Assembly (NCBI RefSeq): GCF_032854445.1
Contig: NC_088307.1
Coordinates: 13,778,017-13,842,016, forward strand
Source of the DNA: Liolophura sinensis
Taxonomy: Eukaryota > Mollusca > Polyplacophora > Chitonida > Chitonidae
DNA: 64,000 nucleotides
Direction of reading: 5' to 3'
In this document: one piece after another, positions 21,049-47,100 of the stretch
How the letters are laid out: every line of letters starts with the position of its first letter
Position numbering within the stretch: the stretch's first letter is position 1
The notes under the pieces: generated by a model
What the model was told of the DNA's origin: nothing
Databases searched by the model: none
Seen by the model: the letters and a program-made list of their open reading frames with translations, nothing else
Position numbers and translations under genes: made by a program

Positions 21049-21984
21049 ATGTGATGCTATACAATTCCACATTTCTTTACCACACTATGCCATATCTGAT
21101 CTAAACATGAGAAAGCTGTTCACACCAGGACCTGCCTGGCTTGTTAATATTATCAAAGTTAATTACAAACAAGTTCCGACATGATCCCCATATTGGAACA
21201 GTCCGGCCATTGTCTCCGTACATGTGTATAAATAGTGTAGGTATACTTTGTAAGTTAAAAGAGGTTTGTGCTCTTTGTGAGGCATGTAACATATTTATGT
21301 GTAGGTGGGCATGCGATCACTGCGTGCGTATGTATGGACAATCCCTCAAAGTGTGGAATCATAACATGCCTTGTAATTATCACAGATTAAGAAGGGATTA
21401 TAGCTTTGTGTTTGTAGCAGGAAAAGTGTTGGGTTATATTAGACGCATTGTATTTGGTAAGTATAACTGGCTCATGGTATGTTGTACATGAGAACCACGT
21501 ATACATACAACACCATGTGCTTCAATTTAGCTAAGTGCGCACAGCGCACGCATGCGTTCGTTCTTCATACCTATAAAAGAACACGACTGTATATAGTCCT
21601 GTATTGTCGATTTACGACTTTAGGTGTATTTGACAACCGAAGTGTGAAGCCAAAGCCTTGTTATTTCGTCTGGTGCACATAAGCCTATATAAATGTATAC
21701 ACTACACCTGAATCTTATAAGGTGAGGGTCGACCTGACCACGTGGACAGGCACTTTAATTAACTAGCCTATATATGGGCCAGCATAAACAACACATGCCG
21801 ACGTCAGCAGGAAATTTCCAGGTTCATGTAACTTGATATCGAAAACTGTCTGCATAATGATGGATGGAATTTTAATCAATTTCGTACCCGGACATCACAA
21901 GGTCTCCATTTTTTCTACAACACGAGCACTGAGTCTATATCTAAACCGTGTACCTAAATAACCACACCATTACGTCTGACCCTG
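21049..21984. other. Intergenic, no gene recognised
   Basis: A 116-codon plus-strand frame (21141-21491) has several cysteines but no recognisable domain or splice support, so I do not call it a gene. Confidence 0.45.
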
Positions 21985-22695
21985 CAGGTAAGAAGCAGGG
22001 TATGGTACGTCTGGTCCGCCAGGTAAGAAACAGGTATGGTACGTCTAGCCCGGCAGCTACAAAGCAGGTATGGTACATCTAGCTCGGCAGGAAAGAAGCA
22101 GGTACTGTACGTCTGGCCCGGCATGTAAGAAGCGGGTATGGTACGTCTGGCCCGGTAGGTAAGAAACAGTATGGTACGTCTAACCCGACAGGTAAAAAGC
22201 AGGTATTGTACGTCTGGCCCGGTAGGTAAGGGGAAGATAAGGTACGTCTAGCCCGGCAAGTAAAAAGCAGGTATGGTACATCTAGCTCGGCAGGTAAAAA
22301 GCAAGTATTGTACGTCTGGCCCGGCAGGTAAGAAGCAGGTATGGTACGTCTACTCCACCAGGTAAGAAACAGGTATTGTACGTCTGGGCCGGCAGGTAAA
22401 AAGCAGGTATGGTACGTCTAGCACGGCAGGTAAGAAGCAGGTATGGTACGTCTGGCCCGGTAGGTAAGGAGAAGATATGGTACGTCTAGCCCGGAAGGTA
22501 AAAAGCAGGTATGGTACATTTAGCTCACCAGGTAAGAAGCAGGTATGGTACGTCTGGCCTGGCAGGTAAGAAGCAGCTATTGTACGTCTGGCCCGCCAGG
22601 TAAGAAGCAGGTATGGTACTGGCCCGTCAGGTAAAAAGCAGGTATGGTACGTCTAGCAAGGCAGGTAAGAATCAGGTGTGGTACGTCTAGCCCTG
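21985..22695. repeat. 34-bp minisatellite, about 21 copies
   Basis: Units of GTAAGAAGCAGGTATGGTAC followed by GTCTGGCCCGGCAG. Changes such as TGGCCC/TAGCCC and ATGG/ATTG are mixed along the array. Confidence 0.95.
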
Positions 22696-35110: not shown

Positions 35111-38100
35111 CTGAAAGTACAATGGTAAGGTCCAAATCATCGATGAACTAAAGATCAAGGTCATTGCAGTCAACTAATGGTCAAGGTCATCACAGTCAAC
35201 TAAAGGTCAAGGTTATTGCAGTCAGCTAAAGGTCAAAGTTATTAGTCAACTAGAAGTCAAGGTCATCACTCATTTAAAGTCAAGGTCATCAGTCTACAAA
35301 GGCCAAGGTTATTACAGTCAACTAGCGGTCAAGATCAACAATGGTTTTGGTCAATCTTTACAAAGCAGTCAGTGTAAAGACTACATTCTACAATAATCAA
35401 GGTCAAAATCATCAGTCAACCAAAGGTCAAAATCATCAGTCAACCAAAGGTCAAGGTCACCAGTCAACTAAGGTTAAGGTTATCACTCAACAAAAGGTCA
35501 AGATCAACAATGGTTTAGGTCAATCGACACAAGCAGTCAGTGTAAAGATTCTACATGATAAAAGGCTGAATGTTGAGGAATGCAAATTTTAGATCAAATC
35601 CTAGTAGACGCATTTTTAATAACAATAAGTTAAACTTGGACATTAAACAATCCACAAAAGTTTAACTATTATCGTTTTTCAGTAAAAGTCTCTACTGGAT
35701 TTTCACCTGCAGACATTAGCGGACTTCCTGGATTAAATATGTATTTCTAAACCAAGACTGGGACAACCAAGTACAATGATGATCTACAAGGAAAGTACTT
35801 GACAATTCCATACCATCAACTTATATGAGCCAAAGCTACATTTATACAGGTTAGGGCAATAAACCTTTTTGTAACAGTCATAATCATAACCTAAATAAAT
35901 ATAGCTTCAAGCTTCAACTCCTCTGTTTTTTCTCGATTTGTCCTTGTATTATTCGTGAGCCGATGGTGTAACACTGAGGAATGTCACTCACAACATTATG
36001 ATTGGTTAACAAATAGGATATCTTGGGTGAAAATATAGCATGGTACCTTCAGAGACGTAACATGAAAAACTTACAGAAGCAGAGGAAGAGTGTGTCAACG
36101 GCCATGTCGTAGACACTGAAGAAGGCAGCTGCTATCACGTAAGATCCCAGCGCTGTCACCTGTAGGTCAGAGTACAAAGGTCAAGGTCATAAACAACAAG
36201 CAAATTTACCAAATATTGAGTCATACTTTATATTTAAATTTTTAGTCAAACCCAGCAGCCAGTGCAGTCAAAGTATAACAGCAGCAGTTTTAGTTCATAT
36301 TTGACATACTTGTACATAATTTTTTCACGCTAAGTACAAAACTGAAGGCTTGGCTTAAACTTAAATCCGCTATTAAGTCTTAAGCCAGTTTTGAACAACC
36401 AGGCAAAGCCAGTTTTGAGCAACCAGGCAAAGCCAGTTTTGAACAATCTGTAGGCAAAGCCAGTTTTGAACAACCTGTAGGCAAAGCCAGTTTTGAACAA
36501 CCTGTAGGCAAAGCCAGTTTTGAACAACCTGTGGGCAAAACACATGTGCGTGGAGCGAGCTCATTTTCAGATTTGACCTCAGGGGCCACAGAATAAATCT
36601 ATAGACAAAATCATATCAAAATCGGACAATGTTTGGAGGAGTTCTTGCATGGAAATGAAAGTATGAGAGACCGATGTACCCAAATTAAAGTACCTTGTTT
36701 TTGAGTAAATAAATGTTGTAAATAGTACAGGCAAAATGTCAAAGTCTTTCAGAAAAGAAGAAAAGTATTATCATGACTGGTCCAAATGACTTTCTTATTC
36801 TTGTTTCAATATATCAATATTTACTGAAGGTAACTCTTTTGCTGAACAAAAAAAAAACAAAGAAAAAAAAAAGCAAGGTTCATTTGAAAATTTAACAAAA
36901 ACCACTAAAAAATGCCAAGTTTTGCACAGCAGGGACAAAACAAACACACTTTACATGTAGGTGGCTGGTACCTATATGTCATCCACATCGCTAGCCCATT
37001 CCATCAGCGAACCAGGCTAGCGACTAACATAAATGTAATACGGGAAACGTTACCATCAAGAAATCTGAATGAAAACCCCCAGTCCGCATAAAATAACCTC
37101 TGCCTTGAAAAATTACCGTTAAAAAAAGAAAAACAATTACAAAGAACATGCACAGTGTCTCGAACTGTGTTCCCCATTTGCTGTCACTATACATGTACGT
37201 CCAAACTGTTGTTCTTCATTTACCGTCACTATACATGTATGTCCAAACTGTTGTTCTCCATATACTGTCACTATACATGTATGTCCAAACTGCTGTTCTC
37301 CATTTACTGTCACTATACATGTACGTCCAAACTGCTGTTCTTCATTTACTGTCACTACACATGTATGTCCAAGCTGTTGTTCTTCATTTATTGTCAGTAT
37401 ACATGTACGTCCACACTGCTATTCTTCATTTACTGTCAGTATACATGTACGTTCAAACTGCTGTTCTTCATTTACTGTCACTATACATGTACGTCCACAC
37501 TGCTGTTCTTCATTTACTGTCACTATACATGTATGTCCAGACTCTTGTTCTTCATTTCAAAAATACCTGGTCTGATCACCTTTCATGGAAATATGGTACA
37601 GTGAGATTTTATATTCATGCTGTGTTTTTGCATAAATCCCTGACAGTAAATATACTTACTACCACAGGGATGATATAGAAGTTCAGATTAGGCTTCTATT
37701 TTACATGTACTTACCACAACTGGGATTATATAGAAGTTCAGATTAGGCTTCTATTTTACATGTACTTACCACAACCGGGATTATATAGAAGTTCAGAATA
37801 GGCTTCTATTTTACATGTACTTACCACAACCGGGATTATATAGAAGTTCAGATTAGGCTTCTATTTTACATGTACTTACCACAACCGGGATTATATAGAA
37901 GTTCAGAATAGGCTTCTATTTTACATGTACTTACCACAACTGGGATTATATAGAAGTTCAGATTAGGCTTCTATTTTACATGTACTTACCACAACCGGGA
38001 TTATATAGAAGTTCAGAATAGGCTTCTATTTTACATGTACTTACCACAACTGGGATTATATAGAAGTTCAGATTAGGCTTCTATTTTACATGTACTTACC

Positions 38101-41100
38101 ACAACCGGGATTATATAGAAGTTCAGATTAGGCTTCTATTTTACATGTACTTACCACAACCGGGATTATATAGAAGTTCAGAATAGGCTTCTATTTTACA
38201 TGTACTTACCACAACTGGGATTATACAGAAGTTCAGATTAGGCTTCTATTTTACATGTACTTACCACAACTGGGATTATATAGAAGTTCAGATTAGGCTT
38301 CTATTTTACATGTACTTACCACAACTGGGATTATATAGAAGTTCAGATTAGGCTTCTATTTTACATGTACTTACCACAACTGGGATTATATAGAAGTTCA
38401 GATTAGGCTTCTATTTTACATGTACTTACCACAACTGGGATTATATAGAAGTTCAGATTAGGCTTCTATTTTACATGTACTTACCACAACCGGGATTATA
38501 CAGAAGTTCAGAATAGGCTTCTATTTTACATGTACTTACCACAACTGGGATTATATAGAAGTTCAGATTAGGCTTCTATTTTACATGTACTTACCACAAC
38601 TGGGATTATATAGAAGTTCAGAATAGGCTTCTATTTTACCACAACCGGGATTATATAGAAGTTCAGATTAGGCTTCTATTTTACATGTACTTACCACAAA
38701 CCTGGTATCATAGAAGTTCAGATTAGGCTTCTTTTTTACATGTACTTACCACAACTGGGATTATATAGAAGTTCAGATTAGGCTTCTATTTTACATGTAC
38801 TTACCACAACTGGGATTATATAGAAGTTCAGAATAGGCTTCTATTTTACCACAACCGGGATTATATAGAAGTTCAGATTAGGCTTCTATTTTACATGTAC
38901 TTACCACAAACCTGGTATCATAGAAGTTCAGATTAGGCTTCTTTTTTACATGTACTTACCACAACGGGGATTATACAGAAGTTCAGATTAGGCTTCTATT
39001 TTACATGTACTTACCACAACGGGGATTATATAGAAGTTCAGATTAGGCTGGTACTCCGTCAAAAAGGGGATCCGGCCATCGTAGAAAAAGTAAGCTGCTG
39101 TTGCTGAAATAACACAGATAAAGTGTGAAGAAAACCGCGGGAAGACGGCATCAGACAGCAGAATGAGGAAAACCGTGGGAAGACGGCATCAGACAGTAGA
39201 ATAAGGAAAACCGCGGGAAGACGGCATTAGACAGCTGAATGAGGAAAACCGCGGGAAGACGGCATCAGACAGCAGAATGAAGAAAACCGTGGGAAGACAG
39301 CATCAGAAAGCAGAATCAGGAAATCAAATGCATATAGGCAAAAAAACCACCGCGACTGACTCAATGTGAGGTGGACATTACAGGCATTTTTTTAACCCAC
39401 AAAATGGTTTCAGTTTTTTGCACTTTTCAAATTTGCATCTGTCCAAACCCAGGTTGTAAAATGAGGACTACTATAAAGCCTGTGAGAAAAACAGTTAGAG
39501 ATTTAATCAAGAAATCATAAAACTTTGTGGATCCGAAAAAAAAAAAAAAAAACAGCAATAAATGTAGATATTACAGAATTTTTTGGCACTATTTTTAAAT
39601 CCTTAGATAGGTCTGAGATAAGCTGTTAGAATGAGGATTGAGGTAAATTGGGGGTGATATTTTTTAGAGAAAGTAAGCAAGGTGGAAAATTCTTTTCCAA
39701 GTAATATATTCTTTAACTCCACAGAGGGTAAACCATATTTTATGCACTTAAGATTACAGAGTAAGAAAATAAGAAAACAGTGACAGAATTAGCGGGAGGA
39801 ACCTCGACATCTCTGCAAGCCTCTGAATGGTATCGTTCTGTAAACTGACAAACGAACTGGTACGGCAAGGCGGAGAATCGGCCCCAGAGAGGTATGATAA
39901 GAAAGTGCAAATGTCAAAATCAAAGCACAATTCTGTAAATTTCCAGATCAGAAGAATAAAACTTGGTTTGAATCACCCATAAATGTTAATTGGCTATAAA
40001 AGTAATGGTTGCTTAGTAATAATCCCACAAAAATGCACTTTCGATCAAAACGCCAATTTTTCGCTCAAACGAGGCACTGTGTCATTTATTTACAATCTGA
40101 GGGTCAACGTTAACCAGAAAAATATCTTTATTGAAGCTTTCATGTGTGTTTTTCTACGTAGCGGAAATAAAAGGCTGAACATCTTTTATATATGTATTTG
40201 ATTGGATGCTCAAGAATTTTTCAGTAAGTTACATTTGTCGTGCAGTGATTTTCCTCATCCAACTGATGCAAAGAAAGGGAGCTTTATAAGCTGTCAATCA
40301 CAGCTATAGTCAGTTTCGCTTCTTGAGATGCACAGTTTCTTGCACTGTGGCCAATTCCCCTTCTTACCATACCAGGTTCTTTGTCAATTTGGTTTTATAT
40401 CCTGATAATGACTTTAATTCAGTATTTCTTTGCTACGTGTATGTCGAATGAATGAATGAATGAATGAATACGGCTTACTGTCACGTTTGGTAATATTTCA
40501 GATATTTCATACATTTCGTGGAGAGAACATAATGTATATATCACATCTGGGGTATAGAAATCTCTTTAGAGGGCTAGTCATAATGGTTTGGAAAAAGTAC
40601 TTATGCTAAATAATCACATATATCAATGACTTTACATGTATCTAGAATGATAACAAGACAATGTCCTGCTGGTATAGAAATCATATAATCTAGGATATAT
40701 TAAAGAAACAATGTCTTACTGATATCAAGTCATCTAGAGAATGATAACGAAACAATGTCTTACTGATATTAAGTCATTTAAAGAATGATAAAGAAACAAT
40801 GTCTTACTGATATTAAGTCATCTAGAGAATGATAAAGAAACAATGTCTTACTAATATTAAGTCATTTAAAGAATGATAAAGAAACAATGTCTTACTGATA
40901 TTAAGTCATCTAGAGAATGATAAAGAAACAATGTCTTACTAATATTAAGTCATTTAAAGAATGATAAAGAAACAATGTCTTACTGATATTAAGTCATCTA
41001 GAGAATGATAAAGAAACAATGTCTTACTGATATTAAGTCATCTAAAGAATGATAAAGAAACAATGTCTTACTGATATTAAGTCATCTAGAGAATGATAAA

Positions 41101-44100
41101 GAAACAATGTCTTACTAATATTAAGTCATTTAAAGAATGATAAAGAAACAATGTCTTACTGATATTAAGTCATCTAGAGAATGATAAAGAAACAATGTCT
41201 TACTGATATTAAGTCATCTAAAGAATGATAAAGAAACAATGTCTTACTGATATTAAGTCATCTAGAGAATGATAAGAAACAATGTCTTACTGATACAGAC
41301 ACTACATTATCTAGAGAATGATAAAAAAAGTCTTACTGATTGCTCCAACAATGACTAATTTCCCAATGAAGAGCAGAAAATCTGTCACTTTGTCAATCAC
41401 AACCACTCTGAAAAGCACAATAGATATACTTGTTTATAAGACAGGTACATTTCACTCTTTTTTACTAGTAAGTTATAATTTTACTGATAAGACTAAAAGT
41501 ATGTTTATATATACGTTTGCCTGGGTTTTCATGTCATGCTTAACAATTTTTCAGTCATATGACGAGGCGGTGTGTCTACATACACCATGTCTTCTAGTGA
41601 CAGAGCGAGTTCAAGCCGCCAAAGTGCTGCTGCCACTCAAGTACCATGCTGAAGACACCAGACATGACACCCCACCTGGTGACATTATACTGACACCAGG
41701 TCTACCAGTTCTGTTTCCTTGCTCTCACTTCTCAGTCCTGAGCGCCAAGCGAGGCTGCAAAAAGTAGCATTTTCAAAGTCTTTGGGATGACCCCACTCTT
41801 GTTTGATCTCAGCTCTCCTGACTTCCATAATACTAAAGTATATCAACAGTGATATATAACAGTGACTTAATCTTAAACAGAATGGAACAATCTTGTTGGT
41901 GATAGCTATAAAGCTGACCTTTTACTTTTGGATTCACCCACAACTTATGCTATTCAAATGTATTTTAGAGAGGACGTATAACCTGTACAACTGACTGAAA
42001 TGCTGACATTAGGATTATAGTAACTATTCTTTTTTTGATAGATTATTTTATGCCAAACTCAAAAATATTTCACTCATGTGTCGGGGGCAAGCATTATGGT
42101 GGCAGGGAACCAAACAGAGCCTGGGGAAGACCCATGACCATCCATAGCTTGCAGGCACATCTTCCCACACACAGACGGAGAGGAAGTCAGCATGAGCTGG
42201 ATATGCATCCACTGCGACCGCATTGATAAGGGGCTCCTGATTGCCACGCTAACTACCGCAGCCATGGAGATCCCAGGTTTACAGTACACATGTCTGCTTA
42301 TGAACACTGGCAGCGCTAGTCGAAAAACATACTTCGTCAGGAATACAAACACCTTCCTGGAAGGCAGAACGTCCGTAACTTAATAAACAACTGGCTAAAC
42401 TTACCTGACTGCATTCCTTAATATTAAGAAGAAGGCATTTTTAGCAGAAGTGCAGAAGTTTTTGCCATATACAGCCACCTGAAATTAACCAAATAAAGCA
42501 GAACATACATCAGCGGCTATCGGATGTACCCAAGACTCGTAAGCTGACAGTTTTATTCTAACATTATTGGTCAAGCTCAAAGTAGATCAGGGAACTCTGG
42601 CAAGGTACAAGTGTGTCACCTCTACAAATAACAGACAACGATATTGACAAACACAAAATGCACACAAACCAATAGGAGCTGAATTCATGGGACTATTTTG
42701 ATTATCATTATCTCTCAACCTTTTACAACTTAAAGTGCAATTCATCCACCTTTTTTATGTGATTTAGAGCACCAAAACTACACTGGTTCGGTTGGCTACA
42801 GAAATAATGCCCTTCAAATAAACATCTTGCAAAAATGTGCAATATACATGTTGTCAATATCACAGACAATATAAATGTGGTGAGAGCAGGAGTGTATGTT
42901 TTATACAGAACTGTGCATGCTGAAGTGTTTTCTACAGAACTGTGCATACTGAAGTGTTTTATACAGAACTGTGCATGCTGAAGAGTTTTATACAGAACTG
43001 TGCATGCTGAGGTGTTTTATACAGAACTGGACATGCAGAAGTGCTTTATACAGAACTGTGCATACTGAAGTGTTTTATACAGAAATGAAAATGCTGAAGA
43101 GTTTTTGACAGAACTGTGTATGCTGAGGTGTTTTATATAGAACTGTGCATGCTGAAGCGTTTTATACAGAACTGAAAATGCTGAAATGGATTTTCAAATT
43201 TATTTATTTATCTATTTGATTGGTGTTTTACGGCATACTCAAAAATATTTCACTTATACAACAACGGACAGCATTATGGTGGGAGTAAACCGACACAGCT
43301 CGGGAAAACCCATGACCATCCGCAGGTTGTTGGCAGGCCTTCCCAATTATGGCCGAAGAGGAAGCCAGCATGAGCTGGACTTGAACTCACGGCGACAGCT
43401 TTAGTGAGAGGCACCTGGGTCATTGCGCAGAGCTGGTATGCTAACCCCCTCAGACAATTTTAAGAAAAACAAACAGCTAGTGGATGTATAGGTAGAAAGC
43501 ATACCATGATGTAGGCATTTTTGTTGATGAATCTCAAGAACTTCTCCAAGCACCAGAAACAGCATTTCAGACATCTGAAAGAAGTAAATGAAGAAGAAAA
43601 CTGTGCGTGTTAAAATGATGAACGAGTAAAATTCCTTTACAGAATGCAACTCATGACGTTGTCACTTTACAACACAGTGGGTCATCATCTAACTCTCCTG
43701 TGATGTGGCACATAAAGTTTAGCAACACCTCCAGACACAGAGCATATTTGCAAATCACACCCTACCCTGCTACAATCAAAGATAAGGGTAATATTACGGT
43801 TTTAGAAAATTTGCATTGTACCTAAAATATTCCACTGATTCTTGGAAAACTTTCATTTTTTTCTTTGGAAAACTTCCATTGTTTTTTGAAAATGGAAAAC
43901 GCACTTACTTGAGGAAAAACTTGGCCACTTTGTTTTCAGCTGCCTTTAGTTTTGCATCCAGGTATTCGAGGAAAACGCGGATAAGCTGAACAATGGCGAT
44001 GATGAGGGCTCCAAACGCTAGCGTTCCCAGGTGATACCTACAATATAGTAGGGCTACAGGAATGAATGAATGATTATGGCTTAATGCCACATCGGCAATA

Positions 44101-47100
44101 TTTCAGCCATGGCGAGAACAAGGTGAAAACGTGAGACGGTTACGAATTTCGAAATGATAGTGAGAACATCAAAAATAAAACAAAAAGTACAGACATGTTT
44201 AAAATCAGATAAGAAAAAACCAAAACAGTTAAAACTCGAAAACCAGCATATTTAAAACATACCATATCTGGAAAGCTATATGTACATAACCTTTTATCTA
44301 TAAATATTAAAGACAATTAAAATTTATATTTTATGATATAGGCCAATGGCCTTCAAATAGTATGGCTACAGGAAATCATTGACAATAAAAAAGGTTTCAT
44401 TTATTTGAACAATGTTTAATTCCATACTCAGGACACATATGTCACTGAAGTCAAATGTTTAGGTAGAGGAAACCTGAGTGCCAGGGATAAAACCACTTAC
44501 CTCTGGCAAGTTACTCACAAACTACAGTATCATAAACTTCTCTTGTGCTCAAATTTTGCCTTATTCTGTGAGTACTAGTGACCTAGGGAAGTTGTTGTAG
44601 GGTTTGTTTGGCAGATAAAATGATAATCTAATCTAGAGGACGTCTGTAAGTTTCAACACCAAAGGTAATAATGTATACCCTAAATCCTCAACCTGTTCAT
44701 ATAAAAAAGAGAACAGTGTTATCAATGCACCTTTTGATTTTTCAGACAAATCTACACTGGTTGGGCTGGCCAATTTCAGGGCTACACAAAAAGTATACAT
44801 GTATTTTTATCAGTCTACACAGAATAATGCTCTTAGAATGTGTTTGAATAAACTCCTTGCAAACATGAGAAAAGGTTAAAGAACTACAGTAACAGTTATA
44901 TGCCTAAAAATGTGTTTTTTGCCCTACTCAAGAATATTTCACTTATACGACGGTGGCCAGCATTATGGTGGGTGTAAACCAGGCAGAGCCCGGAGGAAAC
45001 ACACGACCATCTGCAGGCTGCTGGCAGACCTTCCCACGTAGGACCAGAGAGGAAGCCAGCATGAGCTGGATTTGAACTCACAGCCACCGCATTGGTGTCC
45101 AGACGATAACTTTACATTTACACCTACATACACATAATTTTATACCTCTAAATAATAAATATTTCTTAGGCCTTGTTCAAGCATATCAACAGGAATCACA
45201 AAGTTGCATGAAAGTGGAGCCTTGACAGCACAAAGCAGGTCAGTATAAATAGGACATATTCTCAAGTGTAAGTCAGGATAGCTGAACAAACATTTCTCCC
45301 TTATCATTGATTTGAGTGAAACAAGCCAGTCTTTCCACCACAAAACTACGCTCTGAGCTACACTTCAGTAAATATTGCACCTACCAAGAATCGTGCACAA
45401 TTTCTTGCAGCTGTATATCCGGCAGTCATTTACCACTTAATTAATTTAAAAAAAAAAAAAAGAAAACAGTGTCACATCTTTACCTGATACACCTGCCAAA
45501 CGAGGAGAGCAGAGGGAAGGTTGGGATGTCTTTTGGTTTGGTGAATGCCCAATAATACGAGGCAAAGGCACCCGCCAATGTCATCTGTCCCAGAGCGATG
45601 AAGAAATTGACCAGCCAAAACAGCATGAACAGGTTGTAAATCTGCAGGTAAAATGTGTACCTGAAAAGAAACACATACCCCAGAAAGTTAGGGACAATAT
45701 GAACCACATTGCTCTTGTGAAATTTTGTCAGTTCCAATGCCCAAAAATATCCAAAGATATATCCCATGCTGCTTAACTAAAACATCATTTCTATGTCACG
45801 CATCAAATGTGACAACTGGAAAGAGACACATACCCCAGAAAGTTATGGACAATATGAACCACATTGCTCTCGTGACATTTTGTTGGTTCCAATGCCCAAA
45901 AATATCCAAAGATATATCCCATGCTGCTTAACTAAAACATCATTTCTATGTCACGCATCAAATGCGACACCTGGAAAGAGACACATACCACAGAAAGTTA
46001 GAGACAATATGAACCACATTGCTCTCTTGACATTTTGTCGATTCCAATGCCCAAAAATATCCAAAGATATATCCCATGCTGCTTAACAAAAACACCATTT
46101 CCATGTTACGCATCAAATGTGACACCACACTCAGTCACAGTGTACTGGCTGTTGGCTGCCCAATACCTGGCCTGCTTGATCTATCTCCAAGTCAGGAAAG
46201 TACATCTGTACCATGATTGGTGAAGTCAAAGCTGTCATTACTGGAAAAGATAACTATGGGCTTTCACCGAAATGTATGTTTTAAAATCTCTCTCTTTTTT
46301 TTTTTTTTGTTGTCTTCCAATCCTTGTCGCAAATGGTGTCATCAATTTTTACTTTTCTACTTCTTTGATACTTCACGTTATTTGTTATTATATAAAAAAA
46401 CTTTGCATAAAACCTTTCCATCAAGCACAGGTGGAGCTATTGATTTTACTCTAGCTATACCAAGAATCTAGGACACTTACAGAGCTACTTTTGTGTCCAG
46501 ACGCCCTAAAAGCAAAGATTAAGTGATAAGAATCGAGATAGTACCAATTACTTTGTCACATTTTACTACAGCCTCTGTTGTTAGCTTGGGGGGATAATAT
46601 GGAAACAAAAGTTTTCAATTGTTTCCATTTTTGCTTGGTGTGATGTTGTGTAAAAACACCTGACGTCACCATCCTAATAGATAGACACAAATGACGCTGT
46701 GCTCTCAAACACCCATGACTTCATTCCAGCATATTTGCCTTATTCAACGTCATATCTGTCCCATTCGACGTAATATCAGCTCGATTCGACGTCTTATCTG
46801 CCCGATTCATTGTCACATAAGGAATATTATCATGTCATATCAAATTTTACCGAAACTGTCGAGGATTTGTTTTTGAGGACTCTCCACTTGTTTTGAACCG
46901 TGGTGTTACTTATATTCAATAGGGTATCCTTCATACCAGTTTAATATATCGGTCCAGCCTCAATTAAGACTGAAGTAGTACTTTAAATCAACTTAATATG
47001 GATTACACTGTAAAACGGTCCTTGTTCACATAATGAATTTAGCGTGAAGATTCATGACTTACTCATCTCCTCCATACTTAATGATACCACAGATGTCACT

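Follow-up and report, generated by a model that had tools for sequence, protein, structure and literature searches.

Tandem arrays of exon/intron boundaries are known from the globin genes of amphioxus, where they were named "mirages" after the earlier Adh3 case (PMC3087553; this and the other papers cited below are represented here by extracts of their text). Mirages occur on both donor and acceptor sides, are unstable in length—somatically so at Adh3—and have 6 units in one BflGb6 haplotype and 3 in another, and reverse transcription polymerase chain reaction results suggested regular splicing (PMC3087553). Further examples are known in PGBD5 and troponin C (PMC3902484); the founding paper is Canestro 2002. 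No report of boundary arrays in molluscs was found among the open-licence papers listed. The extracts of abalone and earthworm papers describe intronic minisatellites, and the earthworm paper additionally mentions fourth-exon copies that the transcript lacks. Here we describe such an array in the chiton Liolophura sinensis, at the 3' end of a coding exon of an SLC44 (choline-transporter-like) gene. It lies in a stretch of 64,000 nucleotides (contig NC_088307.1, positions 13,778,017 to 13,842,016 of the forward strand), called the window below, whose own numbering is used throughout. On contig C8 of this genome, eight matches to the molluscan haemocyanin beta-sandwich family PF14830 lie near one another, in agreement with a molluscan host.

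The chiton array belongs to the class of splice-site-spanning minisatellites and is of the same kind as the amphioxus mirages (Adh3, BflGb6, BflGb9, PGBD5 and troponin C). Like these, it is an exon/intron boundary duplicated in tandem in the manner of a minisatellite; cases at donors and at acceptors both exist, the splice signal is present in many but not all units, and a homogenised core is bordered by distinct edges. It differs in its host, a mollusc rather than a cephalochordate, in its 26 copies compared with 6 and 3 at BflGb6, and in the several further cases found on one chiton contig. The extracts on amphioxus report no aberrant splicing, while donor use in the chiton is predicted from the sequence. 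Two more systems can be compared. Intron gain by tandem duplication, described for potato RdRp, ATP2A1 and fission yeast (PMC4974935), also carries splice signals over an exon-intron boundary or an AGGT, but the extra chiton units sit within an existing intron. In DOK7 intron 4, two donors of unequal strength lie 11 nt apart and the choice between them is influenced by SRSF1 (PMC5585400); the chiton locus likewise has several donors competing for one acceptor, but they number 24, are nearly identical in sequence and surroundings, and have no known regulator.

The tandem array at an SLC44 exon end

The main features of the locus are the following.
39015..39103, minus strand: SLC44 (choline-transporter-like) coding exon of 89 nt, the last 35 nt of which lie inside the repeat (conserved frame; human CTL1 alignment)
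39009..39014, minus strand: donor GTAAGT of unit 1, required by the protein (exit in phase 0; gap-free human CTL1 alignment over the junction with the 36159 exon)
37653..39049, minus strand: 55-bp donor array of 26 units, 24 of them with GTAAGTA (Tandem Repeats Finder, TRF, and unit list)
38988..38990, minus strand: in-frame TAA met in unit 2 on read-through past the first donor (translation; position from sequence)
38575..38994, minus strand: block duplication of units 2-5 and 6-9, 210 bp each with 2 differences (unit comparison)
37653..37694, minus strand: diverged last unit (26), reading TA|GTAAGTAT and followed by unique intron (unit list)
36075..36159, minus strand: next exon of the SLC44 gene (frame and human CTL1 alignment)

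The first-pass annotation of this window had described about 25 copies of an exon end together with its 5' splice site, and this description holds: TRF reports a period of 55, 25.8 copies, 92% matches and a score of 2373 over 37653-39049, and cutting the array at AGCCTA yields 26 units. The 55-bp period stands as well; the exon sequence that the units share amounts to 35 nt (11 codons and 2 further nt) and is followed by 20 nt of intron, where 33 coding and 22 intron bases had been proposed. Each unit thus spans the exon/intron boundary, and the first copy is the actual exon end: on the minus strand the exon at 39103-39015 ends in ...CCCGTTGTG and the intron starts with GTAAGTACATG. A 107-base query taken from the exon end matched the genome at the array locus only. 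Approximately 20 exons of this SLC44 gene, one of them uncertain, were recognised in the window.

The splice signal is well preserved along the array, with an exact GTG|GTAAGTA in 23 of the 26 units and GTAAGTA in 24, which agrees with the earlier picture of a real donor followed by about two dozen near-identical decoys, the first of the series being the one that fits the protein. Units 4 and 8 have in common a 10-bp deletion that turns the donor into GTAAAA, and units 3 and 7 an altered stretch. The first-pass annotation had placed most variation at few sites, including the third base of a proline codon, and the unit list bears this out: it is mostly found at an A/T at position 7, an A/G at position 19 and that third base. 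The combination of a homogenised core with a diverged edge unit 26 is the pattern of minisatellite turnover, in which block duplications such as that of units 2-5 and 6-9 are also usual, and both features therefore support the reading of the array as a minisatellite.

Reading frames and further arrays

Human CTL1 (7wwb) aligns to the joined exons without a gap at the junction between the array exon and the exon at 36159, as the first-pass choice of downstream exon start had implied; it follows that the protein requires the first donor. Translation past this donor gives VSTCKIEA and then a stop, the TAA at 38990-38988 in unit 2, so the predicted encounter with a TAA at the next unit is correct, and every donor after the first would include it. 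A stop codon usually triggers nonsense-mediated decay when it lies at least 50-55 nt before a junction. Here the distance from the TAA to the junction is 28 nt for donor 2 and 83 nt for donor 3, and the usual decay rule would therefore apply only from donor 3 onward.

Two more arrays in the same gene span splice sites, one at a donor and one at an acceptor.
40688..41340, minus strand: second donor array, 15 units of about 44 bp, with ATCA|GTAAGAC (ATTA in three) (TRF and unit list)
41337..41407, minus strand: coding exon upstream of the second donor array, its donor lying in the first unit (frame)
45651..46126, minus strand: acceptor array, 3.1 units of 155 bp, the last copy being the acceptor of the exon at 45660-45484 (TRF and unit list)

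In all three arrays the exon-side copy fits the protein. The acceptor array has decoy acceptors before 45970 and 45815, and the acceptor phase of the exon at 45660-45484 (cag|G TAC AC) is the same in two SLC44 paralogues (L003 and L004). In these same paralogues the end that matches that of the 39103-39015 exon (exon 23 in the first-pass annotation) has a single donor and no array, and another SLC44 gene (L005/L028) carries an acceptor array of its own (2.9 × 64 bp).

Boundary arrays were also found in other genes. The survey covered 20 arrays of contig C1 with three spaced AGGTAAGT words and the first 13 with three CAGGTGAG words, all counts being among the matches listed. L051 and L009 are one array (no unit pair was found in the L051 stretch), and 11 of the 32 distinct donor-word arrays start at a probable coding-exon end. 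Among the 20 AGGTAAGT arrays, 6 have a most upstream copy in which an open coding frame comes to its end, and 5 of the 13 CAGGTGAG loci look like exon ends. A Pfam match above cut-off, in the array exon or across the junction, was obtained for 6 of the 32. The match to GH31 at L018 was obtained with the exon alone and joined, and it runs to or across the exon end, as do those to SNF2 at L053 and to the Fe-hydrogenase C domain at L060; presumably, the last two genes are BTAF1-like and CIAO3-like. At L013, taken to be GCNT-like, the Branch domain was found with the exon alone and stops 13 residues before the exon end. DeoC at L021 (by our assumption DERA-like) reached the cut-off only after joining the next exon downstream and runs to or across the exon end, and Rpb1 domain 5 at L016 did so when joined, covering the last 4 residues of the exon and the next exon.

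Other exon assignments have a different basis. The Sec7-like HDS match of L023 sits in a later exon and not in the array exon, which we presume to be similar to ARFGEF; L061, which we take to be OGDH-like, has an E1_dh match below cut-off; L025 has no Pfam match and is assumed to be TOM70-like; and the exon ends at L052 and L062 are called from the open frame only. Pfam scanning covered 15 of the 20 AGGTAAGT exon-side peptides (5 shorter than 20 residues were excluded, and the L016 and L021 peptides were hand-picked), with 2 of the 15 above cut-off, compared with 0 of the 10 peptides scanned from 15 control arrays. No exon was assigned to 14 of the 20 AGGTAAGT arrays, among which L020, L022 and L024 have open frames, and 7 of the 13 CAGGTGAG loci show no clear exon, the 5 of these that were scanned giving no Pfam match. 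PDB searches with the L021 and L023 peptides returned nothing useful.

A stop on read-through is not a general property of these arrays. Of eight donor arrays, six meet one within the first unit (both SLC44 arrays, L016, L021, L023 and L025), while L013 (GCNT-like) and L018 (GH31) stay open for several units. In the GH31 array (L018/L045, about 1-650), the 39-bp unit is in frame for several copies (GKFTWLDLYYSIP), and use of downstream donors would add steps of 13 residues to the protein instead of a stop. Near 835 and near 1038 of L045 lie similar adjoining copies of the next GH31 exon, GILNFQLFGIPLAGVDICGF and GILNFQLFGIPLVGADICGF, which may represent duplicated or alternative exons. An array's real donor does not have to be its strongest: the real donors of L016 (GTAAAT), L018 (GTATGT) and L021 (GTGAGT) match U1 less well than the GTAAGT decoys downstream, in a sample biased by the choice of arrays with perfect decoys. 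If these three genes work, position and not strength must mark the real donor. With decoys that match U1 better and two of the eight arrays open, neither donor strength nor a designed nonsense decay is general.

Several sequences of the window without a place in these arrays are also worth recording. Intronic minisatellites lie off the splice sites of the same gene at 39126-39323, 37163-37557, 36382-36539 and 42897-43185, and tandem repeats make up approximately 12% of the window. A 34-bp array of 21 copies at 21971-22693 on the plus strand holds CAGGTAAG in many units; no exon was noticed at its start, where no dedicated test was made. The exon placed at 46240-46167 joins the exon at 45660 out of phase, which may reflect a misplaced donor or an intervening small exon. 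The intron at 49832-48260 on the minus strand has the donor GTATCCTTC, preceded by ...ATTGCTGT, and carries TTCCTTAATGAC a short distance upstream of its acceptor ATCAG; compared with the U12 consensus it is probably a U12-type intron, and the reading frame supports this.

Origin of the arrays and rival explanations

We consider it likely that the array is a minisatellite born across the SLC44 exon edge, with the first donor in use and the later ones passive decoys. Tandem duplication would have begun with a short stretch covering the exon's 3' end and the initial 20-22 bases of the intron, and slippage or unequal exchange would have expanded it to the 26 copies of the intronic minisatellite. 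The first donor probably owes its selection to transcription order, being the earliest to be transcribed, and to exon definition, as the exon that it closes has an ordinary length (89 nt). The later near-identical donors would be passively tolerated, having no dedicated function, and their occasional use would produce a truncated frame. Among the interpretations offered by the first-pass annotation, a minisatellite born from an exon edge is thus the best supported, given the match to the amphioxus mirages, the further arrays in the same and other genes, and the two array-free paralogues. Its "donor-choice stress test" is a fair description of the locus.

Regulated unproductive splicing, the remaining suggestion of that annotation, would have the later donors truncate the protein and mRNA spliced at donor 3 or beyond degraded, tuning SLC44 output. 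It can call on a TAA that is in frame after any downstream donor and that, from donor 3 onward, is far enough (83 nt) for the decay rule. Against this, units 4 and 8 no longer have GTAAGTA, two close SLC44 paralogues carry no such array, and six of eight arrays meet a stop where a rough estimate for random DNA of that length gives about half or slightly more, with the GCNT-like and GH31 arrays open for several units. The proposal is therefore unsupported, since no conservation could be demonstrated and the read-through stop is not general, and we regard it as very unlikely. Less probable still is a step toward new exons and introns, in which units would become in-frame mini-exons of 36 nt (TAG|AAG...GTG|GTAAGT), in line with models that derive new introns from tandem duplication. 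A full unit is indeed open in the exon frame between TAG and GTAAGT, but the candidate acceptor GTACATGTAAAATAG has no pyrimidine tract, a unit intron of about 20 nt is too short to be spliced alone, and the human CTL1 alignment shows no insertion at the junction. Extracts of the literature provide precedents for such a step, a model of this type being proposed in the globin paper (PMC3087553) and an intron gain in potato RdRp having been described as a duplication over an intron-exon boundary (PMC4974935).

Protection of introns by U1 is established in vertebrates, and the 24 GTAAGTA sites within 1.4 kb could in principle serve as some two dozen intronic U1 sites that either retain U1 or guard against premature polyadenylation. 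Other words also form arrays commonly, nothing examined here favours a function, and we give this idea little credence. We find it hardest to believe that the array is an assembly artefact: HiFi coverage is modest (14x), but HiFi reads average 8.3 kb and are thus longer than the 1.4-kb array (coverage and read length from the extract of PMC11068029), the differences between units are structured (block duplication, shared deletions and edge decay), and similar arrays are present at other genes.

Some observations weigh against a minisatellite of chance origin whose first donor is the one in use. That the mRNA uses the exon-side donor is probable, as judged from the reading frames. Under a random-seed model in which tandem-repeat rows with at least 3 copies count as arrays, 3 of the 11 arrays in 35000-57000 of the window span a splice site where 0.77 are expected for 39 splice sites (P 0.034, unadjusted; we do not claim significance, as one of these arrays was the reason for selecting the region). 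The word CAGGTGAG in three copies gives 1,870 matches, 4- to 5-fold above the 434 and 348 of its dinucleotide-preserving shuffles CAGTGGAG and CAGGAGTG, which exceeds random seeding, and per occurrence it is found in arrays about 3- to 6-fold more often than these two shuffles (small counts).

The comparisons behind these figures are rough, the arrays having been counted by hand among the matches listed and the single-word lists being nearly all from the plus strand and perhaps strand-incomplete. Against reversed words, AGGTAAGT in three copies has 629 matches versus 468 (single words 26,660 versus 29,208), corresponding to 13 versus 11 distinct arrays in the first 51.6 Mb of C1 and 16 versus 15 in the first 72 Mb, and CAGGTGAG has 1,870 versus 250 (single words 29,888 versus 9,061). 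Reversed words differ in dinucleotides (the word TGGATGAA, for example, has 1,087 matches), and dinucleotide-preserving shuffles were used as the control for this reason; a third shuffle, AAGTAGGT, with 151 matches, is too rare for comparison. In the first 6.95 Mb of C1, the distinct arrays number 13 for CAGGTGAG, 3 for CAGTGGAG, 5 for CAGGAGTG, 8 for AGGTAAGT and 2 for AAGTAGGT, one of the CAGTGGAG arrays being the DERA-like array (L021) itself. Outside repeats, in 155 kb that are partly donor-array flanks, the single words occur 7, 5, 8, 11 and 1 times, respectively. For AGGTAAGT there is no per-occurrence excess in arrays over CAGTGGAG and CAGGAGTG. Evidence that array birth is aimed at splice sites is thus mixed, and the CAGGTGAG excess may be due to the donor, the motif or survival. 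The listed CAGGTGAG arrays differ in unit and therefore look like separate births. Arrays of C1 also crowd toward its ends (first 10 Mb and last 12 Mb): the first 4.3 Mb hold 8 of the 20 listed AGGTAAGT arrays, and the 16 listed CAGGAGTG arrays include 6 within the first 8.1 Mb and 5 located past 88 Mb.

Implications for donor choice and intron evolution

A bolder extension, which we put forward tentatively and consider rather unlikely, is that 5' splice sites, at least those of the CAG|GTGAG type, are a hotspot of minisatellite birth in the chiton lineage. Many genes, perhaps hundreds, would then carry arrays of decoy donors and rely on a robust rule that favours an exon's first donor, including at loci whose decoys are the better match to U1.

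The choice of the spliceosome among identical donors has mostly been studied with small constructs. The chiton genome holds natural constructs in which a single donor recurs in unchanged surroundings, as many as two dozen times, and as the coding frames indicate the right donor, these arrays are natural tests of choice among identical splice signals; it is here that the value of the SLC44 array lies. Public RNA-seq data exist for five tissues of Liolophura japonica (extract of PMC11068029). Models of how introns are gained and exons extended can also draw on the arrays as raw material. Occurring in another phylum, the arrays suggest that mirages are not peculiar to amphioxus.

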